Shown piece after piece: positions 3,536-32,042 of a DNA stretch of 36,517 nt (the stretch's first letter is position 1; the number at the start of each line of letters is the position of its first letter). The notes under the pieces are model-generated. The model was not told where the DNA came from, ran no database searches, and worked only from the letters and a program-made list of their open reading frames with translations. Made by a program: the position numbers and the translations under genes. Source of the DNA: a virus; IMG/VR virus record IMGVR_UViG_3300021139_000056, positions 1-36,517 of that record, one strand, 5' to 3'.

Positions 3536-5050
3536 ATGGTAGAGACCTCCTTAGAACCTTCTCTAGATGCAGACTTAGCTAATGGATCCTATAACCAGCA
3601 GGATGCTTATGAGCTAGCTAAGACAGATATGGACTTCTTGGCAGGAGTGGCACTTCCTCATGTTACTGAGTATGCCTTCCCTCCTATCTTCTTAGCTATC
3701 TGGGCAATGCTTCTTACCTATGTATATCGCCTCCGAGATTTCACAAAGATAGCAATAGGCTTGCCTAGGGGTTTTGGGAAGACCTCAGTACTCAAGCTCT
3801 TCTGCCTCTTCTGTATACTGTACACCAATAAAAAGTTCCTACTGGTGTTCGGCCCAACTGCTGGACATGCTGAGAATACTCTTAGTGATATAGTGGATAT
3901 GTTGGATGAGCCTAATGTCAAGGCCATCTATGGAGATTGGAGAGTGGGTCTGGAAAAGGATACACAAGCAGTAAAGAAGTTTGGCTTTCGTGGTAGGAAC
4001 ATCATACTAGCAGCTCTTGGTCAGGGAGGTTCAGTTCGAGGGCTTAACATAAAGAACTCTAGACCTGATGTAATGATCTTTGATGATATCCAGAGTCAGG
4101 AGGATTCAGAGAGTCCCACTATTAGTGCAGCTATGGAGCGATGGATGTTAGGTACTGCTATGAAGGCTGCTAGCCATAAAGGTTGCCTCTATATTTTTGT
4201 AGCTAATATGTATGCTACTGAATGGAGCTTACTTAAGAGGCTTAAAAGAAACCCTGAATGGCTCAAGTTCATTGCTGGAGGAATACTAGCTGACGGTACT
4301 AGTTTATGGGAAGCTCTTAAACCCCTCAAGCAGTTGCTTGCTGAGTTCCGTAATGACCTCATGTCTGGCCACCCAGAGCTCTTCTATAGTGAGGTACTTA
4401 ATGATGAGAACGCTAGTGTTAATACTCACATAGCTTTGTCCAAGATGCCAGTCTACCCATATGATTCTGATGAACCTAGTGCGGGTAACTTCATAGTAAT
4501 TGACCCCTCTAATGATAAAGTCAATAGTGATGCAGTATCTATTGGCTTGTTCCATGTAATAGAGGGTAAGGCAGTAGTACGCAGGATAATAGAAGGTAGG
4601 TTCTCACCAGGAGAGACCATCAAGCAGACCCTTACACTAGCTATAGAGACTGGCACCAGTTTGATAGTTATAGAAGGTAATGCTTATCAGTACTCGCTAT
4701 GCTACTGGTTTAAATATTTCCAAGATCGACTAGGTCTTTATGAGATTAATGCAGTGCCTATATATAGCGGTACTCGCAGTAAAAATGCTAGAATCCTTGA
4801 TATGTTTAAGGCGCTACTTAGCGGGGAATTGCCTATACACCCTGAATGCCTTGCTCAGGTAGCCCATCAGATCATCCACTTCAACGCACTAAAGACTAAC
4901 AATGTAGATGGCATACTAGACTTACTTACCTATGCCACAAGAGTACTAACTGAATATCCCCACTTCATAGTAATAAACAATCCTTTTGGAGAACTAGCTA
5001 ATGGTAACATACCAGGAGTGTTAGAGATCCATGAGACGTGTTTGTTCTAA
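3536..5050 (+). CDS. terL: Terminase large subunit
   Basis: A 504-residue DNA-packaging motor: ATPase plus headful/cos nuclease, docking on the portal. Walker A is GLPRGFGKTS (75-84), Walker B VMIFDDI (179-185, with two Asp), and GGSVRG (164-169) precedes it. The RNase H-like nuclease domain shows D323 in FIVIDPSND, E380 in VIEGNAYQ and Asp residues at about 458-462 (VDGILDLL). The length is usual for the family. GGAG lies seven bases upstream of the ATG. Flanked by the small terminase and portal as expected. Confidence 0.92.
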   Translation: MVETSLEPSLDADLANGSYNQQDAYELAKTDMDFLAGVALPHVTEYAFPPIFLAIWAMLLTYVYRLRDFTKIAIGLPRGFGKTSVLKLFCLFCILYTNKKFLLVFGPTAGHAENTLSDIVDMLDEPNVKAIYGDWRVGLEKDTQAVKKFGFRGRNIILAALGQGGSVRGLNIKNSRPDVMIFDDIQSQEDSESPTISAAMERWMLGTAMKAASHKGCLYIFVANMYATEWSLLKRLKRNPEWLKFIAGGILADGTSLWEALKPLKQLLAEFRNDLMSGHPELFYSEVLNDENASVNTHIALSKMPVYPYDSDEPSAGNFIVIDPSNDKVNSDAVSIGLFHVIEGKAVVRRIIEGRFSPGETIKQTLTLAIETGTSLIVIEGNAYQYSLCYWFKYFQDRLGLYEINAVPIYSGTRSKNARILDMFKALLSGELPIHPECLAQVAHQIIHFNALKTNNVDGILDLLTYATRVLTEYPHFIVINNPFGELANGNIPGVLEIHETCLF

Positions 5051-5070
5051 TAACCCTCCAGGAGCGCAGA

Positions 5071-7119
5071 ATGGCAGCATCAACAAGCATGACCCAACTA
5101 TCTAGTAAGAGCCAAGCTGGCTTAGTAGACTTTCTAAGGAAGCAGAAGATAGGGTGGAAATCCTACTATTCCATACGTAACGCTATGGAGGTGATAGATA
5201 GGGAGTACTACAGGGAAAGCAATAAACTAAAAGATAATCAAAGAGCCGATCTAGCTAATAGAATGGGAGATGCAGACAAGTTCAGGGATATAACTGTTCC
5301 AGTAGTCATGCCTCAAGTCGAGACCTTTGTTACCTACCTTACCAGCGTCTTCTTAACAGGGGAACCCATCTTTGGTGTAGTAGCCTCTCCTGAGTATGAA
5401 GATGCAGCTCTTATGGTAGAAGCTGTAATAGCAGACCAAGCTACCTTTGGAGGTTGGAGGGCAGAGCTAATTAAGTTCTTTAGAGATAATGGCAAGTACT
5501 CGCTTGGAGCTTGTGAAGTATCTTGGGATGCAGTAACTACTGCAGTACTAGAAAGTGATGCTAAGTTCAGTCTTAAGGAAGGTAAGCCCAAGAATGTGGT
5601 ATGGGAAGGTAATCGCATCAAAAGACTTGATCTATACAATACCTTCTGGGATACTAGAGTAGCTCCAGGGGATGTAGCTAAGTTTGGGGAGTTTGCAGGT
5701 TATGACCAGATGGTATCTCGTACTCACCTTAAGCAACTTATCGCTGCACTGCCAGAAGTAATTACTGCAAATCTAGTACAAGCTTTCGAAAGTGGTACTC
5801 CTCTCGATCAGTACTATATACCCCAAATCAACCCTAATAGTTTGGTAGCCTTAGGGTATAATCCAGCAGGTGAGGAGAATTGGTTCAGTTGGGCAGGTAT
5901 AGCGGATGGTAGGGCTGATATAGCCTATCGTGGCCAGTATGTATGGACTACCTTGTATGCTCGCATTTTGCCTAGTGAGTTTGGTATTAAGGTACCTAGT
6001 CCTAATACTGCACAGGTGTGGAAATTATATATAGTGAACTATACTACCCTAGTGTATGCTGAACGCCAGACTAATGCCCATGATATGATACCTATCATCT
6101 TTTCCTGCCCGAATGATGATGGCCTTAAGTACCAGACCAAGAGTCTTGCTAGTAATGTGCAACCTTTGCAGCAAGTAGCTAGCGCTATGATGAATTCCTT
6201 GGTAGCCTCCAGAAGAAGAGCTATTAGTGATCGAGGTATCTATAACCCACTATATATTAATAAGGCAGATATAAATAGTAATAACCCTTCTGCCAAGATA
6301 CCTTGTAAACCTACTGCATATGCAGGGGTAGCTCTAAATGAGATGTACTATAGTATACCTTTTAATGATGACCAAGCTAGCACTCTTATGCAAGGTATTA
6401 GTACCATGCTTAACTTTGCAGATACAGTTTCCGGCCAGAATAAAGCACAGCAAGGTCAGTTTGTTAAGGGTAACAAGACTCTACATGAGTATGATGATAT
6501 CATGGGTAATGCTGATGGTAGGTCTCGCTTAGCAGCTATAGTAATGGAAGATCAATTCTTTAGTGTTGCTAAGCAGATACTAAAGATTAATATCTTGCAG
6601 TTCCAAAGTACTAGCGATCTATATCATGAAGTACAGGATAAGACAGTAACTATCGACCCGCTAGTGTTACGTAATGCCAGCTTCAAGTTTAAGATCAGTG
6701 ACGGCCTAGTACCTTCAGATAAGTTAATTAATGAAGGTGCTTGGCAGTCTGCACTGCAGGTAATAGGTAGTAGCCCCCAGATAGGCAGCGCCTACAATCT
6801 CGGCCCGATGTTCTCGTACTTGATGAAGACCCAAGGTGCAGATATTCGAGACTTCGAAAAGCCAGCACAGCAGATCCAATACGAGCAGGCTATACAATCT
6901 TGGCAGCAAACTGTTATGAGTATCCTCAAGCAGAATCCAGAAGCTACTGCTAAGCAGTTCCCTCCTCAGCCTATGCCAGTACAGTTTGGCCTAGGTACAG
7001 ACGGCAAGCCTACTGGCCAGCCTGCTCCTGGAGATGAGTCTCAAGAGAGTATTGTACAGAAGATAATGGAGGCTAGTAACCCAAATGCAGAACAACAAGA
7101 ACCTGCAAGCGAGGCATAA
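5071..7119 (+). CDS. Portal protein
   Basis: A 682-residue protein directly after the large terminase. Start at 5071 (MAASTSMTQ) is chosen for AGGAG seven bases upstream; the frame is open further left, but only through the terminase end. The N-terminal part (about 25-110) has the long helices and charged loops seen in podovirus portals (RNAMEVIDREYYRESNKL, PQVETFVTYLTSVFLTGEP). The C-terminus is Gln/Pro-rich and disordered. It would form the dodecameric vertex ring through which DNA enters and leaves. The call rests on order, size and general sequence character. Confidence 0.85.
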   Translation: MAASTSMTQLSSKSQAGLVDFLRKQKIGWKSYYSIRNAMEVIDREYYRESNKLKDNQRADLANRMGDADKFRDITVPVVMPQVETFVTYLTSVFLTGEPIFGVVASPEYEDAALMVEAVIADQATFGGWRAELIKFFRDNGKYSLGACEVSWDAVTTAVLESDAKFSLKEGKPKNVVWEGNRIKRLDLYNTFWDTRVAPGDVAKFGEFAGYDQMVSRTHLKQLIAALPEVITANLVQAFESGTPLDQYYIPQINPNSLVALGYNPAGEENWFSWAGIADGRADIAYRGQYVWTTLYARILPSEFGIKVPSPNTAQVWKLYIVNYTTLVYAERQTNAHDMIPIIFSCPNDDGLKYQTKSLASNVQPLQQVASAMMNSLVASRRRAISDRGIYNPLYINKADINSNNPSAKIPCKPTAYAGVALNEMYYSIPFNDDQASTLMQGISTMLNFADTVSGQNKAQQGQFVKGNKTLHEYDDIMGNADGRSRLAAIVMEDQFFSVAKQILKINILQFQSTSDLYHEVQDKTVTIDPLVLRNASFKFKISDGLVPSDKLINEGAWQSALQVIGSSPQIGSAYNLGPMFSYLMKTQGADIRDFEKPAQQIQYEQAIQSWQQTVMSILKQNPEATAKQFPPQPMPVQFGLGTDGKPTGQPAPGDESQESIVQKIMEASNPNAEQQEPASEA

Positions 7120-7140
7120 TCCAGTAACTACTAGAAGCAC

Positions 7141-7193
7141 CCTTCCGAGGCCGTGAGCTAGATTTGGCAGTGGGGCGTGAGCAGAGCGGAAGG
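7141..7193 (+). other. Hairpin upstream of the structured RNA
   Basis: CCTTCCG (7141-7147) pairs perfectly with CGGAAGG (7187-7193). The loop contains CGTGAGC twice (7152-7158 and 7176-7182). It lies 21 bases after the portal stop and directly before the larger nested structure at 7195-7318; no T-tract follows, so it is not a simple terminator. Confidence 0.55.
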
Positions 7194-7194
7194 T

Positions 7195-7318
7195 TGTTTG
7201 CAAAGGTTCCAAGTCAAGGGCGAAGTAAGTAAATACCGGAGCAAGGAGCGTTAGCGACGCAGCGAGGATGATTTACGCAACTGAGAGCGAAGCGTCCCTT
7301 TACCTTGGAAAGCAAACA
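7195..7318 (+). ncRNA. Structured RNA element, copy 1
   Basis: Nested helices: TGTTTGC/GCAAACA (7195-7201 with 7312-7318), TTCCAAG/CTTGGAA (7207-7213 with 7304-7310), AAGGG/CCCTT (7216-7220 with 7296-7300), GTAAAT/ATTTAC (7229-7234 with 7271-7276), and an inner hairpin GCGT-TAGCG-ACGC (7248-7260). A related element on the opposite strand (31730-31847) shares AGTCAAGG, AATACC, GCAGCGAGG and GCAAC blocks and keeps the same helices with compensatory changes. It ends 79 bases before the next start codon. It may be a cis-acting leader, an RNase III processing site, a stand-alone small RNA or a mobile RNA. I do not recognise a known family. Confidence 0.7.
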
Positions 7319-7397
7319 TGCCTTACGATATTGCCGCGCTCCCTGCTCTAGCTCTTAGGCCGAACCTCTATTCATATTAACTACTAGGAGTACCTTA

Positions 7398-7679
7398 ATG
7401 CAATTACAACAAAATACCTTTGCTTCCTGGCATCTAACCAAGTCAGAGTATACATCAGGAGTAATCTTATCTCCTCAACAACAAGCAGTAATACAGAATG
7501 ATATAGCCCAAGCTGCAGAACAAAAGTTAGGGCTTAAACTTAATACTACCAATGTAATGGAGTATGCTCAAGCTGAAGCAGAACTCCAAGGTAGAATACT
7601 AATATTGCAACTTCTGCTTGCTAGATCAGAAGATGCTTTGACTTCTTTACAAACTACTAGCGAAGAAGACTCTTTATAA
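7398..7679 (+). CDS. Hypothetical protein, 93 aa
   Basis: Begins MQLQQNTFASWHLTKSEYTS, with AGGAG eight bases upstream. The second half is helical (AEAELQGRILILQLLLARSE), probably coiled coil, and the end is acidic. It lies between portal and scaffold, a usual place for small head-assembly factors. There is no recognised domain; a head assembly role is inference. Confidence 0.65.
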   Translation: MQLQQNTFASWHLTKSEYTSGVILSPQQQAVIQNDIAQAAEQKLGLKLNTTNVMEYAQAEAELQGRILILQLLLARSEDALTSLQTTSEEDSL

Positions 7680-15309: not shown

Positions 15310-15579
15310 ATGATGAATTCAGTATATAAAGTACAAGTACCTAATGTTGCTAGTACAGGATTACCCTATGTAGATGTAGTACTTAATGCTTTACTGGTAG
15401 CTGTTACTACTTTAGGACAAGGTAGTAATTCCTTACCTTCCTACACTACTGCTAAAAGACCTGCAGCTAGTTCTCTACCAGAAGGCACTTTAATTTATGA
15501 CTCAACCCTAAGACTCCCTATCTATAATAAGGTAGGTTCTGGGGTTGGTTGGTATAACTTTGCAGGAGTAGCAGTATGA
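15310..15579 (+). CDS. Small structural-like protein, 89 aa
   Basis: Begins MMNSVYKVQVPNVASTGLPY, with GGGAGC before two successive ATG codons. The C-terminal half, SYTTAKRPAASSLPEGTLIY then DSTLRLPIYNK and GWYNFAGVAV, is the short motif common at the ends of phage fibre and tail proteins (RP...GT.IYDSTL..P...). Overlaps the SET-domain gene by four bases (ATGA). Probably a minor virion protein. Confidence 0.6.
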   Translation: MMNSVYKVQVPNVASTGLPYVDVVLNALLVAVTTLGQGSNSLPSYTTAKRPAASSLPEGTLIYDSTLRLPIYNKVGSGVGWYNFAGVAV

Positions 15580-16499
15580 ATAAAGATTTACAGCTTATAC
15601 AAAATGCTAGAGATGACTTTAATAGATTCCTAGATGAGGTAGAACTTACTGACTCTCAAGTCTGGGTACTTACTAGCAGAACAGATGATCGTATGCCTAT
15701 GCCAGAAGATGTGGAGTTGGTACAGGTAAAACCTAGTCGTATACACGGTCTTGGTATGTTTGTAGTTGAGGCGGTATCTGCAGGACAATTACTAGCGCCT
15801 ATGAACCTTAATGGGCTTAGAACTCCAGCAGGTAGGTTTGTCAATCATAGTGATGCACCTAACTGCATAGCAGTGCCTAAGGATGAGAACTTATATCTTG
15901 TGGCTGCAAGGGATTTAGAGCGAGATGAGGAATTGTTACTTAACTATCGCCAACCTATAGCTGCACTAGGAGAAAGAAGCTTACTATGGGAACGCTATCA
16001 GGGGGGTTCTGTACCTTTAGTTCAACTAGCTAATAAACATCGTATCAATACTGAAGGTATGTCTAACAGACAGAAGGTAGAAGTTATAGAATGGATTCTT
16101 ACCCACTACTATGAAGATATACTACCTACCTTTAAACTAGAGCATCATATCTCTGAAGGTGTATACACTCGTAGTCTTACTATACCTAAAGGAGTAATGC
16201 TTACAGGTAAGATACATAAGAAAGCCTGCACTACTATCTTGTTAAAGGGGGATATCACTGTCATGACAGATGAAGGTATGCAGCGAATAAAAGCTCCTTA
16301 CATAGCTACCAGTAAAGCAGGGATTAAGCGGGCTGGGTATACACATGAAGAGTCTATCTTTGTTACTGTGCATGCTACTGAACTTACTGAGGTAGCAGAT
16401 ATAGAGGCAGAGTTGTTTCAAGAAAGTGATATAACTTGGGTAGATGAGTTACTTCTCGCTCTTAACCCTCCTTCCACTCAACCCACTTTAGAGGTATAA
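15576..16499 (+). CDS. SET-domain protein with C-terminal cupin-like domain
   Basis: 307 residues, AGGAG eight bases before the ATG, start overlapping the previous stop. SET (protein lysine methyltransferase) motifs: SRIHGLGMFV (54-63), GRFVNHSDAPN (86-96) and RDEELLLNYRQ (116-126) with the terminal Tyr at 124. The SET core is compact, with a short insert between the first two motifs. After a linker, residues about 195-275 (TIPKGVMLTGKIHKKACTTI, LLKGDITVM) look like a cupin beta barrel. Unusual in a virion gene block: it may modify a virion or host protein, or be a non-catalytic structural reuse of the fold. Confidence 0.75.
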   Translation: MNKDLQLIQNARDDFNRFLDEVELTDSQVWVLTSRTDDRMPMPEDVELVQVKPSRIHGLGMFVVEAVSAGQLLAPMNLNGLRTPAGRFVNHSDAPNCIAVPKDENLYLVAARDLERDEELLLNYRQPIAALGERSLLWERYQGGSVPLVQLANKHRINTEGMSNRQKVEVIEWILTHYYEDILPTFKLEHHISEGVYTRSLTIPKGVMLTGKIHKKACTTILLKGDITVMTDEGMQRIKAPYIATSKAGIKRAGYTHEESIFVTVHATELTEVADIEAELFQESDITWVDELLLALNPPSTQPTLEV

Positions 16500-29401: not shown

Positions 29402-31636
29402 CTAATGCTCTTTACTATCTTGCCAGTTCTGGCCACCTAAACTAAGGTCTACTGGAACCAAAAGATTCCTAGTGACCCCACCTATATCTGTTACTGGCAC
29501 TTCAAATTCCATACATTGTTTCACCTCTTGTGCTAAATACTCATAATCTTCCCTATACTGGAATAGTATAGAGTCATGAATCTGTGCTACCAGTTTGAAG
29601 TTCTGATAGTTATGCCACCATACATTATAGAACACTTTAACGAAAGCTTTGTTAAGAGTCATTGCATTAAGGCTTTGTGGTGGATGTGCTATATAAGCGT
29701 TTAAATCTCTTTTGTTCTTAGCAGGGTTACCAAAACAGTAGCGAGTCCAGCCGGTAGCTCCTACCAATACATGAGCAGAATTAACTTGCTTGATTATCCA
29801 AGCTGGATATATCTTGGCTACTACCTTATAAGTAGTCTCGAAGCACTTACCTAAGTATGCTGCTATCTGTAGGGCTGCATAGTGCTTAGGTAATCCGAGC
29901 CTTGCTGCTGCCTTGAAGATATTTGCTAATCCCATAGTATCTACTAGAACTGAATCTCCCATGTTATAGTTCTTACCGTGATTGACTGGTTTGCTTAACT
30001 GGCGAATTTCCTTATCTAGTATAGTATGGCTGCCATCAGGATTATTAATACAGATTTCTTCATAGGGTATACCAAAGAAAGCACTAGCATTAAAAGAGTG
30101 AAAATCGTTATCTCCATCTACTGCCGCGATTAGTTTAGTATCTCCAGTAATGTATCCAGTATCCCGACTTTCTGCTTGAGCATAGTCAGCCTCACCTATT
30201 AGAAAGCCTTCATCTGCTTTAAGAAAAGCTTTGATACCGCCTTGCCTAGGTATGTTCTGCATATTTTGCCCACACCAGAAGGCATGACTTTCACTAGCTA
30301 GCCTACCTGTCTTAGTACCATAAGGAGTAAGGCTAGTAAGGAGTCTACCGAAGAAGAACTTATCTTCCACTAGGTAGGTACTTACTAGCTTGGCTGCTTT
30401 GCGATACTCGAAGATTTTATCTATCAGCCAAGTATTGTAGGGATGTCTAAAGGCTGCCTTCTTTAAGTCCTTTTCTTCCGTACTCTTTATATCCTTGCAA
30501 CCTATAATATGCAGTAAGGTCTTTACCTGCTTAGGACTAGCAGGGTTGAAGTGAGGTGTAGCTAAGTTGATACCTAGGCTAGCTCTTGCTTCATCCCGTA
30601 TAGCTTCTTGTTTAGTCTTGATCTTCTCAAACATAGGAAAGTCTACAGCCATACCAGTAGCTTCTGCAAGTACTGCTGGAGCTATTACTGGGAACTGCTG
30701 CTTATAGTTTTCTCTAGCCCATCTGGGAGCTTCCTGCAACCAAGCAAGAAAGGCCCAAGCTGTGTACCAAGTATCCCTAGCATTGTACTCGTATAAGTCC
30801 ATAGCATTACCAGTACTTCCTTCGTTCTTCCAAAAGAGGGACTCATGGATATAGAAAGCAGCTAGTCTGCCAAGATCTTTTTTTAGTTCACAGTACCAAG
30901 AATGATGAGCTACTGCTGTATCAAAGAAGTAATTGACTAATGGGCATCCGAAGCGGTTCAGATAGGCTATATCATACTTACCATTCTGTAGTAGCTTAGG
31001 TGCAATAGATGCATTGAACTTAGCTATCCAAGTAAAGCGATACTCATACTCCTCCACTTCGAGACCAAAAGGTAAGGGCACTACATAAGTTCTAGTTGCT
31101 AGTTGCCTAGTTACTATAGTATAAGATATGCTGGAAATACTTAAAGGTTCTTTATGAGTTTCTATGTCTACCGCTGCTAACAAAGTATTAGGATTTTGTA
31201 ACTCACTAAAGAGTTGCTCATACTTTTCTCCTTCTACTAGACTCCAAGAGAATTTATCTGGCTTCATCCATTTACTAGGTTCTGTAATCTTACTTACATA
31301 GCGTTCCAATAAGAACTGCCCATAAGACAAAGTAATAGTCTGCTTGAGATTAGGTACTATAAGAAACCAAAGATCATGCTTAGCATTGTATATGTAGGAG
31401 CCAGCATAATTCTCTACTGTCTGCTCCTTCTCACTTGCAGTATTGCATAGCTTAGGTATGAGTCCTGACTGTGTAGTAATGACGTGTCGATATTTGTCCC
31501 TCTTGCATATCATAGCTACTTCTGCTAGAGTTTCCATATAAGTAAGATTGACCCGTACTGTATGGCCTCTAGTTGCTACCTTAAGTGAGCCAAGATAAGG
31601 CTTATCGTATTGGGAACCTATGAATAGTATGTTCAT
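29402..31636 (-). CDS. Family A DNA polymerase with 3'-5' exonuclease
   Basis: 744 residues. Exonuclease motifs: DIET (157-160), NGKYD (218-222) and YNARD (284-288). Polymerase: TKTGRLASE (441-449), NMQNIPR (458-464), motif A EADYAQAESRD (482-492, Asp484), motif B RQLSKPVNHGKNY (545-557) with His in place of Phe, motif C QIHDSI (685-690) with Ser instead of the usual Glu after the catalytic Asp688. Replicates the phage genome. No Shine-Dalgarno is visible before the ATG; the leader is C/T-rich and preceded by structured RNA (31730-31847), hinting at unusual translation control. Confidence 0.93.
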   Translation of the reverse strand: MNILFIGSQYDKPYLGSLKVATRGHTVRVNLTYMETLAEVAMICKRDKYRHVITTQSGLIPKLCNTASEKEQTVENYAGSYIYNAKHDLWFLIVPNLKQTITLSYGQFLLERYVSKITEPSKWMKPDKFSWSLVEGEKYEQLFSELQNPNTLLAAVDIETHKEPLSISSISYTIVTRQLATRTYVVPLPFGLEVEEYEYRFTWIAKFNASIAPKLLQNGKYDIAYLNRFGCPLVNYFFDTAVAHHSWYCELKKDLGRLAAFYIHESLFWKNEGSTGNAMDLYEYNARDTWYTAWAFLAWLQEAPRWARENYKQQFPVIAPAVLAEATGMAVDFPMFEKIKTKQEAIRDEARASLGINLATPHFNPASPKQVKTLLHIIGCKDIKSTEEKDLKKAAFRHPYNTWLIDKIFEYRKAAKLVSTYLVEDKFFFGRLLTSLTPYGTKTGRLASESHAFWCGQNMQNIPRQGGIKAFLKADEGFLIGEADYAQAESRDTGYITGDTKLIAAVDGDNDFHSFNASAFFGIPYEEICINNPDGSHTILDKEIRQLSKPVNHGKNYNMGDSVLVDTMGLANIFKAAARLGLPKHYAALQIAAYLGKCFETTYKVVAKIYPAWIIKQVNSAHVLVGATGWTRYCFGNPAKNKRDLNAYIAHPPQSLNAMTLNKAFVKVFYNVWWHNYQNFKLVAQIHDSILFQYREDYEYLAQEVKQCMEFEVPVTDIGGVTRNLLVPVDLSLGGQNWQDSKEH

Positions 31637-31694
31637 TATAGTAGTGAGTAGTAGGTGATAGGTAGGGTGTAGTTACTAAATAGTCGCAGCTGCC

Positions 31695-31715
31695 TGCCTA
31701 ACAGCGGAGCTGGCA
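31695..31715 (-). other. Hairpin in the DNA polymerase leader
   Basis: CAGC-GGA-GCTG (31702-31712) is extended by TGC/GCA across a small bulge. It lies between the structured RNA copy 2 and the polymerase start. Not followed by a T-tract. Possible part of the same leader structure. Confidence 0.45.
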
Positions 31716-31729
31716 ATAGCGTATCATGG

Positions 31730-31847
31730 GGCGCATCTCCCAGCAAGGCACTGCTGCGCACTCGGTTGCGACAATCTTCCCTCGCTGCGCTACGCTTGCT
31801 GCGGGTATTCTCTTACCTCGGCCTTGACTGTGAGCCTCTTAAGCGCC
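31730..31847 (-). ncRNA. Structured RNA element, copy 2
   Basis: Read on the minus strand, helices are GGCGC/GCGCC (31847-31843 with 31734-31730), CTCACAG/CTGGGAG (31834-31828 with 31743-31737, one mismatch), AAGGC/GCCTT (31825-31821 with 31749-31745) and GAGAAT/ATTGTC (31812-31807 with 31775-31770, one mismatch). Against copy 1 (7195-7318) the shared blocks are AGTCAAGG, GTAAG, AATACC, GCAGCGAGG, GATT and CGCAAC. Helix bases change in pairs: G-C to C-G in the third helix, T-A to C-G and A-T to C-G in the second, T-A to A-T in the fourth. It ends 93 bases before the polymerase ATG. Confidence 0.7.
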
Positions 31848-31901
31848 TATCCATGCTAGCCATCGCTCAAAGCTCCTTGTTAAACATGGCATACATCTGC
31901 T

Positions 31902-32042
31902 TTATCCTGCCGGAAACTTAGGCTTTACTAGATGCCTGAAGATTATCTTAGCTTTAGGGCTGCTATTGCTATCTTGCTTGCTAGTGCAGGCTATCAGTGT
32001 GAGTAGTATTAATAGTAACGTACTTGCTAGTATGTATCTCAT
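31902..32042 (-). CDS. Small lipoprotein, 46 aa
   Basis: ATG at 32042 with AGGA seven to eight bases upstream. Signal peptide MRYILASTLLLILLTLIAC ends in a good lipobox LIAC (Cys19), leaving a mature lipoprotein of 28 residues that is Ser/Lys-rich (CTSKQDSNSSPKAKIIF) and ends KPKFPAG. Lies alone between the SSB-like gene and DNA polymerase, not in the lysis block. Could be an outer spanin or a superinfection-exclusion-type lipoprotein; both are inference. Confidence 0.6.
   Translation of the reverse strand: MRYILASTLLLILLTLIACTSKQDSNSSPKAKIIFRHLVKPKFPAG

Follow-up and report, generated by a model that had tools for sequence, protein, structure and literature searches.

The window, the whole stretch of DNA analysed here (36,517 nt), is the complete IMG/VR record IMGVR_UViG_3300021139_000056. 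By its terminase, its portal and head proteins, its primase and its DNA polymerase, the phage lies near Pseudomonas phage PaP2, EBPR podovirus 3, Polaromonas phage Tiera and Aeromonas phage P5. Judged from sequence, the genome is that of a PaP2-like podovirus, with late genes on the plus strand and early genes on the minus strand. One of the late genes (15576-16499) encodes a SET-domain (PF00856) protein. The portal gene (phrog_15554; 5038-7119, +) is followed by a conserved gene for about 90 amino acids (7398-7679, +), whose orthologue lies directly 3' of the portal gene in most relatives. The DNA polymerase I gene (29402-31636, -) is preceded by a 46-aa lipoprotein-like ORF (31902-32042, -). 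Each of these two gaps contains a structured element, one in the late operon and one before DNA polymerase. The elements lie on opposite strands, where a sequence-only reading of the window had placed them, and each is in the sense orientation of its own operon, on both window strands. That reading described cores of about 120 nt: copy 1 at 7195-7318 (+), 75 nt after the portal gene and 79 nt before the next gene, and copy 2 at 31730-31847 (-), with 54 and 93 nt on the corresponding sides, distances which agree with those claimed. The size was underestimated: pairing runs on outwards, and the elements are 205-215 nt long (copy 1, 7149-7361, +; copy 2, 31685-31890, -). Another very stable fold, rich in ATGGCA/TGCCAT repeats, was found at 1299-1538 (-; -101 kcal/mol per 240 nt) and is unrelated to copies 1 and 2.

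Copy 1 has about 54 arm pairs. Its outer stem (GGCC-GAGCTAGA/TCTAGCTC-GGCC) reaches up to the tip, and its core consists of P1 (TGTTTGC/GCAAACA), a purine bulge (AAAGG), P2 (TTCCA/TGGAA) and P3 (GTCAAGGG/CCCTTTAC). A 59-nt inner domain (7223-7281, +) comprises P4 with a small hairpin and, by comparison with the tips of two phage relatives (L064 and L069) and of Holosporales copies, is apparently an insertion in the family tip CAAGGGCG / TGAGAGCGAAGCGTCCCTT. Copy 2 has about 56 arm pairs with TAACA/TGTTA outermost, and its core has the outer helix GGCGC/GCGCC, the purine bulge TTAAGAGG, P2 (CTCAC/GGGAG, with a single A-G mismatch), P3 (GTCAAGGC/GCCTTG-C) and a 54-nt inner domain (31765-31818, -) homologous to 7223-7281. 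In both copies the inner domain looks inserted into a shorter tip that relatives have as well. Both copies are unique in the genome. They share an 18-nt block, AGTCAAGGSCGARGTAAG, which occurs just twice at up to three mismatches, with 0.1 occurrences expected by chance. Both show the long imperfect stem, the P3 helix GUCAAGG/CCUUGAC at the tip and the variable head that characterize what we call GUCAAGG-tip long hairpins.

The full-length sense strands fold more stably than their shuffles (z -5.6 for copy 1 and -3.6 for copy 2). On their own, the 120-nt cores are no more stable than shuffled sequence (z -1.3 and -0.5), and the unconstrained MFE structure of the copy-2 core is not the shared one (-41.3 kcal/mol, versus -29.6 kcal/mol for the shared fold). 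In an alignment of the two copies made by hand with N padding, 97% of the pair cells hold standard pairs, and 7 of 35 pairs are changed on both sides; shuffles gave 3.5 ± 1.3 such pairs and slid controls 0-1, and sliding the partners destroyed the pairing. The observation is confirmed, with corrections: paired double changes exceed the controls, but two of the proposed helices, CTCACAG/CTGGGAG (A-G) and GAGAAT/ATTGTC (G-G), each have a mismatch in copy 2. Ordinary intrinsic terminators or chance hairpins might be expected at such intercistronic positions. However, no terminator-like site (a short GC hairpin with a T-run) and no U-tract was found at either copy, and the z values and the covariation also speak against this explanation, which is refuted as a full account and which we regard as very improbable. 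No promoter-like site was found near copy 1 and three, at chance level, near copy 2; the phage's own promoters may differ.

A covariance model built from the two copies, a search proposed with the original observation, was run on 80 portal loci and gave weak matches. Three of the four (L012, L064 and L065) lie just downstream of the portal gene and have the same P1-P2-P3; the order of these helices in copy 1 was also found in L012, L064 and L063. No member was detected near DNA polymerase in the 80 loci, so the position of copy 2 is not common to relatives. In most relatives the portal gene and the next gene are tightly packed (about -40 to +45 nt). In a scattered minority the gap is about 175-315 nt and is filled by one long hairpin of about 180-250 nt, whose tip, GUCAAGG...CCUUGAC, is that of the window copies. 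About fifteen further hairpins carry, close to the tip, the GUCAAGG..CCUUGAC stem or an evident variant of it; besides the two window copies, about a dozen phage loci have the features of the family. As a control, 60 random palindromic 5-mers were put in place of CAAGG..CCTTG: they yielded on average 3.0 non-coding hairpins with the 5-mer in the stem and at most 10, against 14 for CAAGG..CCTTG. In PaP2 (L009, 7114-7289), a 170-nt hairpin with a different tip and unrelated sequence lies at nearly the same place, 3' of portal/gp09 (sense z -8.1, antisense -3.1), as in other PaP2-type records.

Five members carry the AAAGG bulge (copy 1, copy 2, L012, L064 and L063). Their alignment has 7 pairs changed on both sides, compared with 3.1 ± 1.2 in shuffles, and 96% of its cells are paired, versus 30-49% when slid; its covariation score was reached by none of 500 shuffles. 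Because the alignments are small and hand-made, we treat the covariation as strong, not final. Exact DNA patterns from both copies found no relative in IMG/VR (the sole match sits in a coding region and was rejected), and blastn of the two gaps found no match among phage records. A pattern scan of viral contigs returned many long hairpins and was not used as proof, because such a scan selects palindromes; a reversed-pattern control and arm pairing outside the pattern were used in its place. Several hairpins with the GTCAAGGG tip were seen together in other viral contigs, for example L200 (8629-8695 and 9108-9174) and L221 (3 copies). Those of L200 are alike over the central ~100 nt, and their outer arms differ and are still paired.

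Aeromonas phage P5 has five copies. Every one has the same 8-bp stem around two triloop hairpins; the letters vary and the pairing is always kept, with 9 pairs changed on both sides and both inner helices 100% paired. Four copies are located in gene gaps and the fifth in the 3' part of ORF P5_0037, which reads through it.

Of 20 phage elements, 17 have a sense strand whose fold is more stable than that of the complement, and when G-U pairs were left out of the folding, single mismatches in the stems came to 17 G-T and 5 A-C. The transcribed RNA therefore appears to be under selection; the signal is weaker in P5. Together with the five-member alignment and the P5 copies, this bias supports the earlier claim of selection on RNA structure more strongly than the two copies do by themselves. 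We also considered that the element acts as DNA, the palindrome serving as a single strand or cruciform in replication, packaging or recombination (a module linker) and RNA folding being a by-product. The palindrome itself, the presence of GNA triloops, which are stable in DNA, and the absence of orientation bias relative to genes among the Holosporales copies described below would agree with this, as would the portal junction being also an insertion hot spot, with unrelated extra ORFs at the hairpin site in L010, L011 and L087. Against it stand the excess of G-U over A-C, the greater stability of the sense strand and an orientation that tracks transcription on both window strands, and we hold it to be quite unlikely.

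When the presence of the hairpin was mapped as a label on the portal tree, 8 changes were required, of which no fewer than 7 fall on supported branches, and none of 500 shuffles needed as few as 8; the label is therefore clustered, yet repeatedly gained or lost. The best pair of empty and filled sites is L021 (6-nt gap) and L069 (193-nt gap with hairpin), which have 78% portal identity and the same next gene. Positions vary as well: elements lie after the portal gene, after the next gene, before portal, before the polymerase, in other P5 gaps and inside P5_0037. Presence is patchy between relatives, and copies are multiple and at unrelated sites within a genome (two in the window and five in P5), as in MITEs and dispersed palindromic elements. 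A 10-bp direct repeat, TAACTACTAG, lies on either side of copy 1, at 7125-7134 and 7378-7387 (both +), with the right-hand repeat ending shortly before the next gene begins; these are the only two exact occurrences in the window. The repeat may be a target-site duplication, although a weak candidate: p is 0.007 for copy 1 alone and is not significant across the 14 elements tested, at which no other flanking direct repeat was found. Of the window proteins compared with PHROGs or Pfam, none was recognised as a transposase, HUH nuclease or RAYT. The suggestion that the RNA is mobile thus gains indirect backing from its scattered presence, its several positions, multi-copy genomes and the copy within an ORF; transposition itself we infer from this distribution.

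Bacterial genomes were scanned with the pattern TGTCAAGGGC..CCCTTGACA, exact and palindromic. Most of the bacterial matches listed are long hairpins in which arm pairing extends well beyond the pattern, and their tips carry two small hairpins, as in P5. Whole-genome counts reached 60 copies in a Hyphomicrobiales bin, 62 in a Holosporales bin, 25 in a Streptomyces and 18 in a Lachnospiraceae strain, with 0 copies of the reversed pattern in these four genomes. Carriers are rare: within the respective class or families they number 1/190, 1/81 and 2/80 genomes, and each of these counts includes the seed genome. The 62 copies of the Holosporales bin (Hm464_bin42, G021; L419-L438) are about 150 nt long, end in TTTTGG..CCAAAA and lie in a 1.0-Mb genome. 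In the Hyphomicrobiales bin (S144_35; L326, L327, L338, L341, L348, L360 and L366) the copies have common outer arms, GCATTTTC..GAAAATGC, and the next ~8 nt vary between copies and are perfectly complementary within each. In Streptomyces sp. NBC_00249 (G019; L298, L408-L418) the hairpins mostly form inverted pairs 1-3.7 kb apart, and what lies between them (GntR regulators, NUDIX, aminoglycoside-phosphotransferase-like, NmrA-like, lipase and one DDE transposase) makes them look like hairpin-bounded gene cassettes.

A profile of the Holosporales tip placed L012, L015, copy 1, L064, L065 and L069 in its top 8 matches of 2.2 Mb of phage loci, all six on the sense strand; by a rough estimate the hairpins make up about 0.2% of this DNA. 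Single nhmmer E-values were weak (0.2-9), and the reversed profile gave nothing comparable. The tips compared are TGAGAGCGAAGCGTCCCTT in copy 1 and TGAGAGCGAgcaaagCGAAGCGTCCCTT in Holosporales, with the 59-nt inner domain added in copy 1. On this resemblance the phage and Holosporales elements are probably kin, which would give them one ancestor, though this is not proven; convergence on a stable palindrome is a possible alternative. The bacterial copies come from the matches listed for a pattern that was exact and palindromic, so homology across phyla is not proven.

A phage-specific small RNA, as first supposed, does not sit well with the greater length of the element or with same-tip look-alikes in bacterial genomes. 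On such an account, a cis-regulatory or small non-coding RNA would be inherited vertically, often lost and immobile, and its head would bind a phage or host protein and tune the downstream gene (on the scaffold/capsid side, or DNA polymerase). It would explain the sense-strand bias in phages, the conserved unpaired motifs (e.g. the purine bulge AAAGG, and CGCAAC-GAG) and the recurrence near the portal gene in several lineages. It has more difficulty with the variety of downstream genes (a small virion-side gene, DNA polymerase, portal and others), with five copies in P5 including one within an ORF, with the scatter on the portal tree and with bacterial repeats that have the same tip core, and we rate it as rather unlikely. 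Given the length of the element and the bacterial hairpins that share its tip core, we prefer a dispersed palindromic element that passes through an RNA phase to a dedicated phage riboregulator.

We therefore consider it probable, with moderate confidence, that the two copies are old copies of a non-autonomous, dispersed palindromic element that was carried by an enzyme into gene junctions and now forms an intercistronic hairpin in mRNA. An unknown (borrowed) enzyme would carry the element, here about 205-215 bp, into junctions between phage genes. Transcribed within the operon mRNAs, it would fold into a very long imperfect hairpin, in which the conserved near-tip stem (U/A-GUCAAGG..CCUUGAC) holds a head that varies and consists of one to three small hairpins. 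The hairpin may shield or separate the mRNA of the flanking genes, as a barrier to 3' exonuclease or a site of processing or degradation; such an effect is suggested by the strand bias and by analogy with known REP RNAs. As the phage keeps the transcribed strand foldable, an intercistronic RNA hairpin is the most likely present role. More tentatively, and in our view less likely than not, all these elements may belong to one ancient hairpin mobile family with a (T)GTCAAGGG..CCCTTGAC(A) core and covarying arms, which, lacking a transposase of its own, would move among phages and bacteria of many phyla, bound small gene cassettes as inverted pairs in Streptomyces and be kept as an mRNA element in phages.

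In the compact genomes of phages, an unannotated structured element of 200 nt that comes and goes between genes is a cost that needs explanation. The recognisable core offers a handle on the spread of palindromic repeats without a transposase, on their possible carriage between hosts by phages, and on a possible influence of long intercistronic hairpins on the ratio of neighbouring phage proteins. Annotation is warranted: the element occurs in Aeromonas phage P5, whose genome is sequenced, and Rfam does not contain it.

The fold had not been recognised from sequence, and the Rfam 15 covariance models likewise gave no match for either copy, even at E<=5. At gathering threshold, 18 family-member loci gave nothing but one tRNA, and one bacterial copy gave only long-hairpin miRNA noise below cut-off. 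We found no prior description of the family in Rfam or in openly searchable papers (subscription literature lay outside the search): searches of papers for the core motif and allied terms turned up nothing of relevance, and none of the titles returned dealt with long structured RNAs between genes of PaP2-type phages. These palindromic elements of about 150-220 nt, scattered in related phages and with look-alikes in some bacteria, are apparently an undescribed family. Group I/II, hammerhead/twister, HEARO and pRNA were judged by eye and set aside, having no Rfam support. Like HEARO, GOLLD, ROOL, RAGATH and skipping-rope, the element is a structured RNA of phages and mobile elements; the window copies match none of these Rfam families at gathering or relaxed thresholds. 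The PeSL cassettes of T4-type phages, reportedly described by Arbiol et al. 2010, are said to be mobile intergenic stem-loops with an early promoter and a short terminator-like stem-loop. In contrast, neither promoter nor terminator was found at copy 1 and no terminator at copy 2, where the promoter-like sites are at chance level, with the caveat that the phage's promoters may be of another type.

REPs are dispersed palindromes, mostly intergenic and sometimes in genes, plausibly transcribed and with G-T pairs in their stems (PMC3733652). GTAG- and CGTC-tagged REPs include Rickettsia RPE-4/RPE-6 and Neisseria dRS3 (Di Nocera et al. 2013, PMC3733652). A unit is 20-40 bp with an unpaired GTAG or CGTC (TGTC, CCTC) tag at one end; dimers can form larger hairpins and can sit in longer palindromes, and the CGTC class has no known transposase (PMC3733652). 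Like REPs and RPEs, the phage element is dispersed, patchy, located between genes and sometimes in genes, and probably transcribed. In contrast to the 20-40 bp of a REP, GUCAAGG-tip elements are 150-220 nt long (205-215 nt here), with the conserved core paired at the tip side and the outer arms variable; the TGTC/GTC is central and paired with GAC(A). MITEs such as ERIC and NEMIS are non-autonomous, about 100-200 bp long and form long RNA hairpins that affect mRNA stability (PMC3733652, PMC1590033). The phage element resembles them in kind, size and folding and would do so in its effect on mRNA, but in the phage copies no terminal repeats or target duplication are established and the conserved part is central rather than terminal. 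In its behaviour the element is REP/MITE-like, while its size and its paired, central tag place it outside the REP definition applied here.
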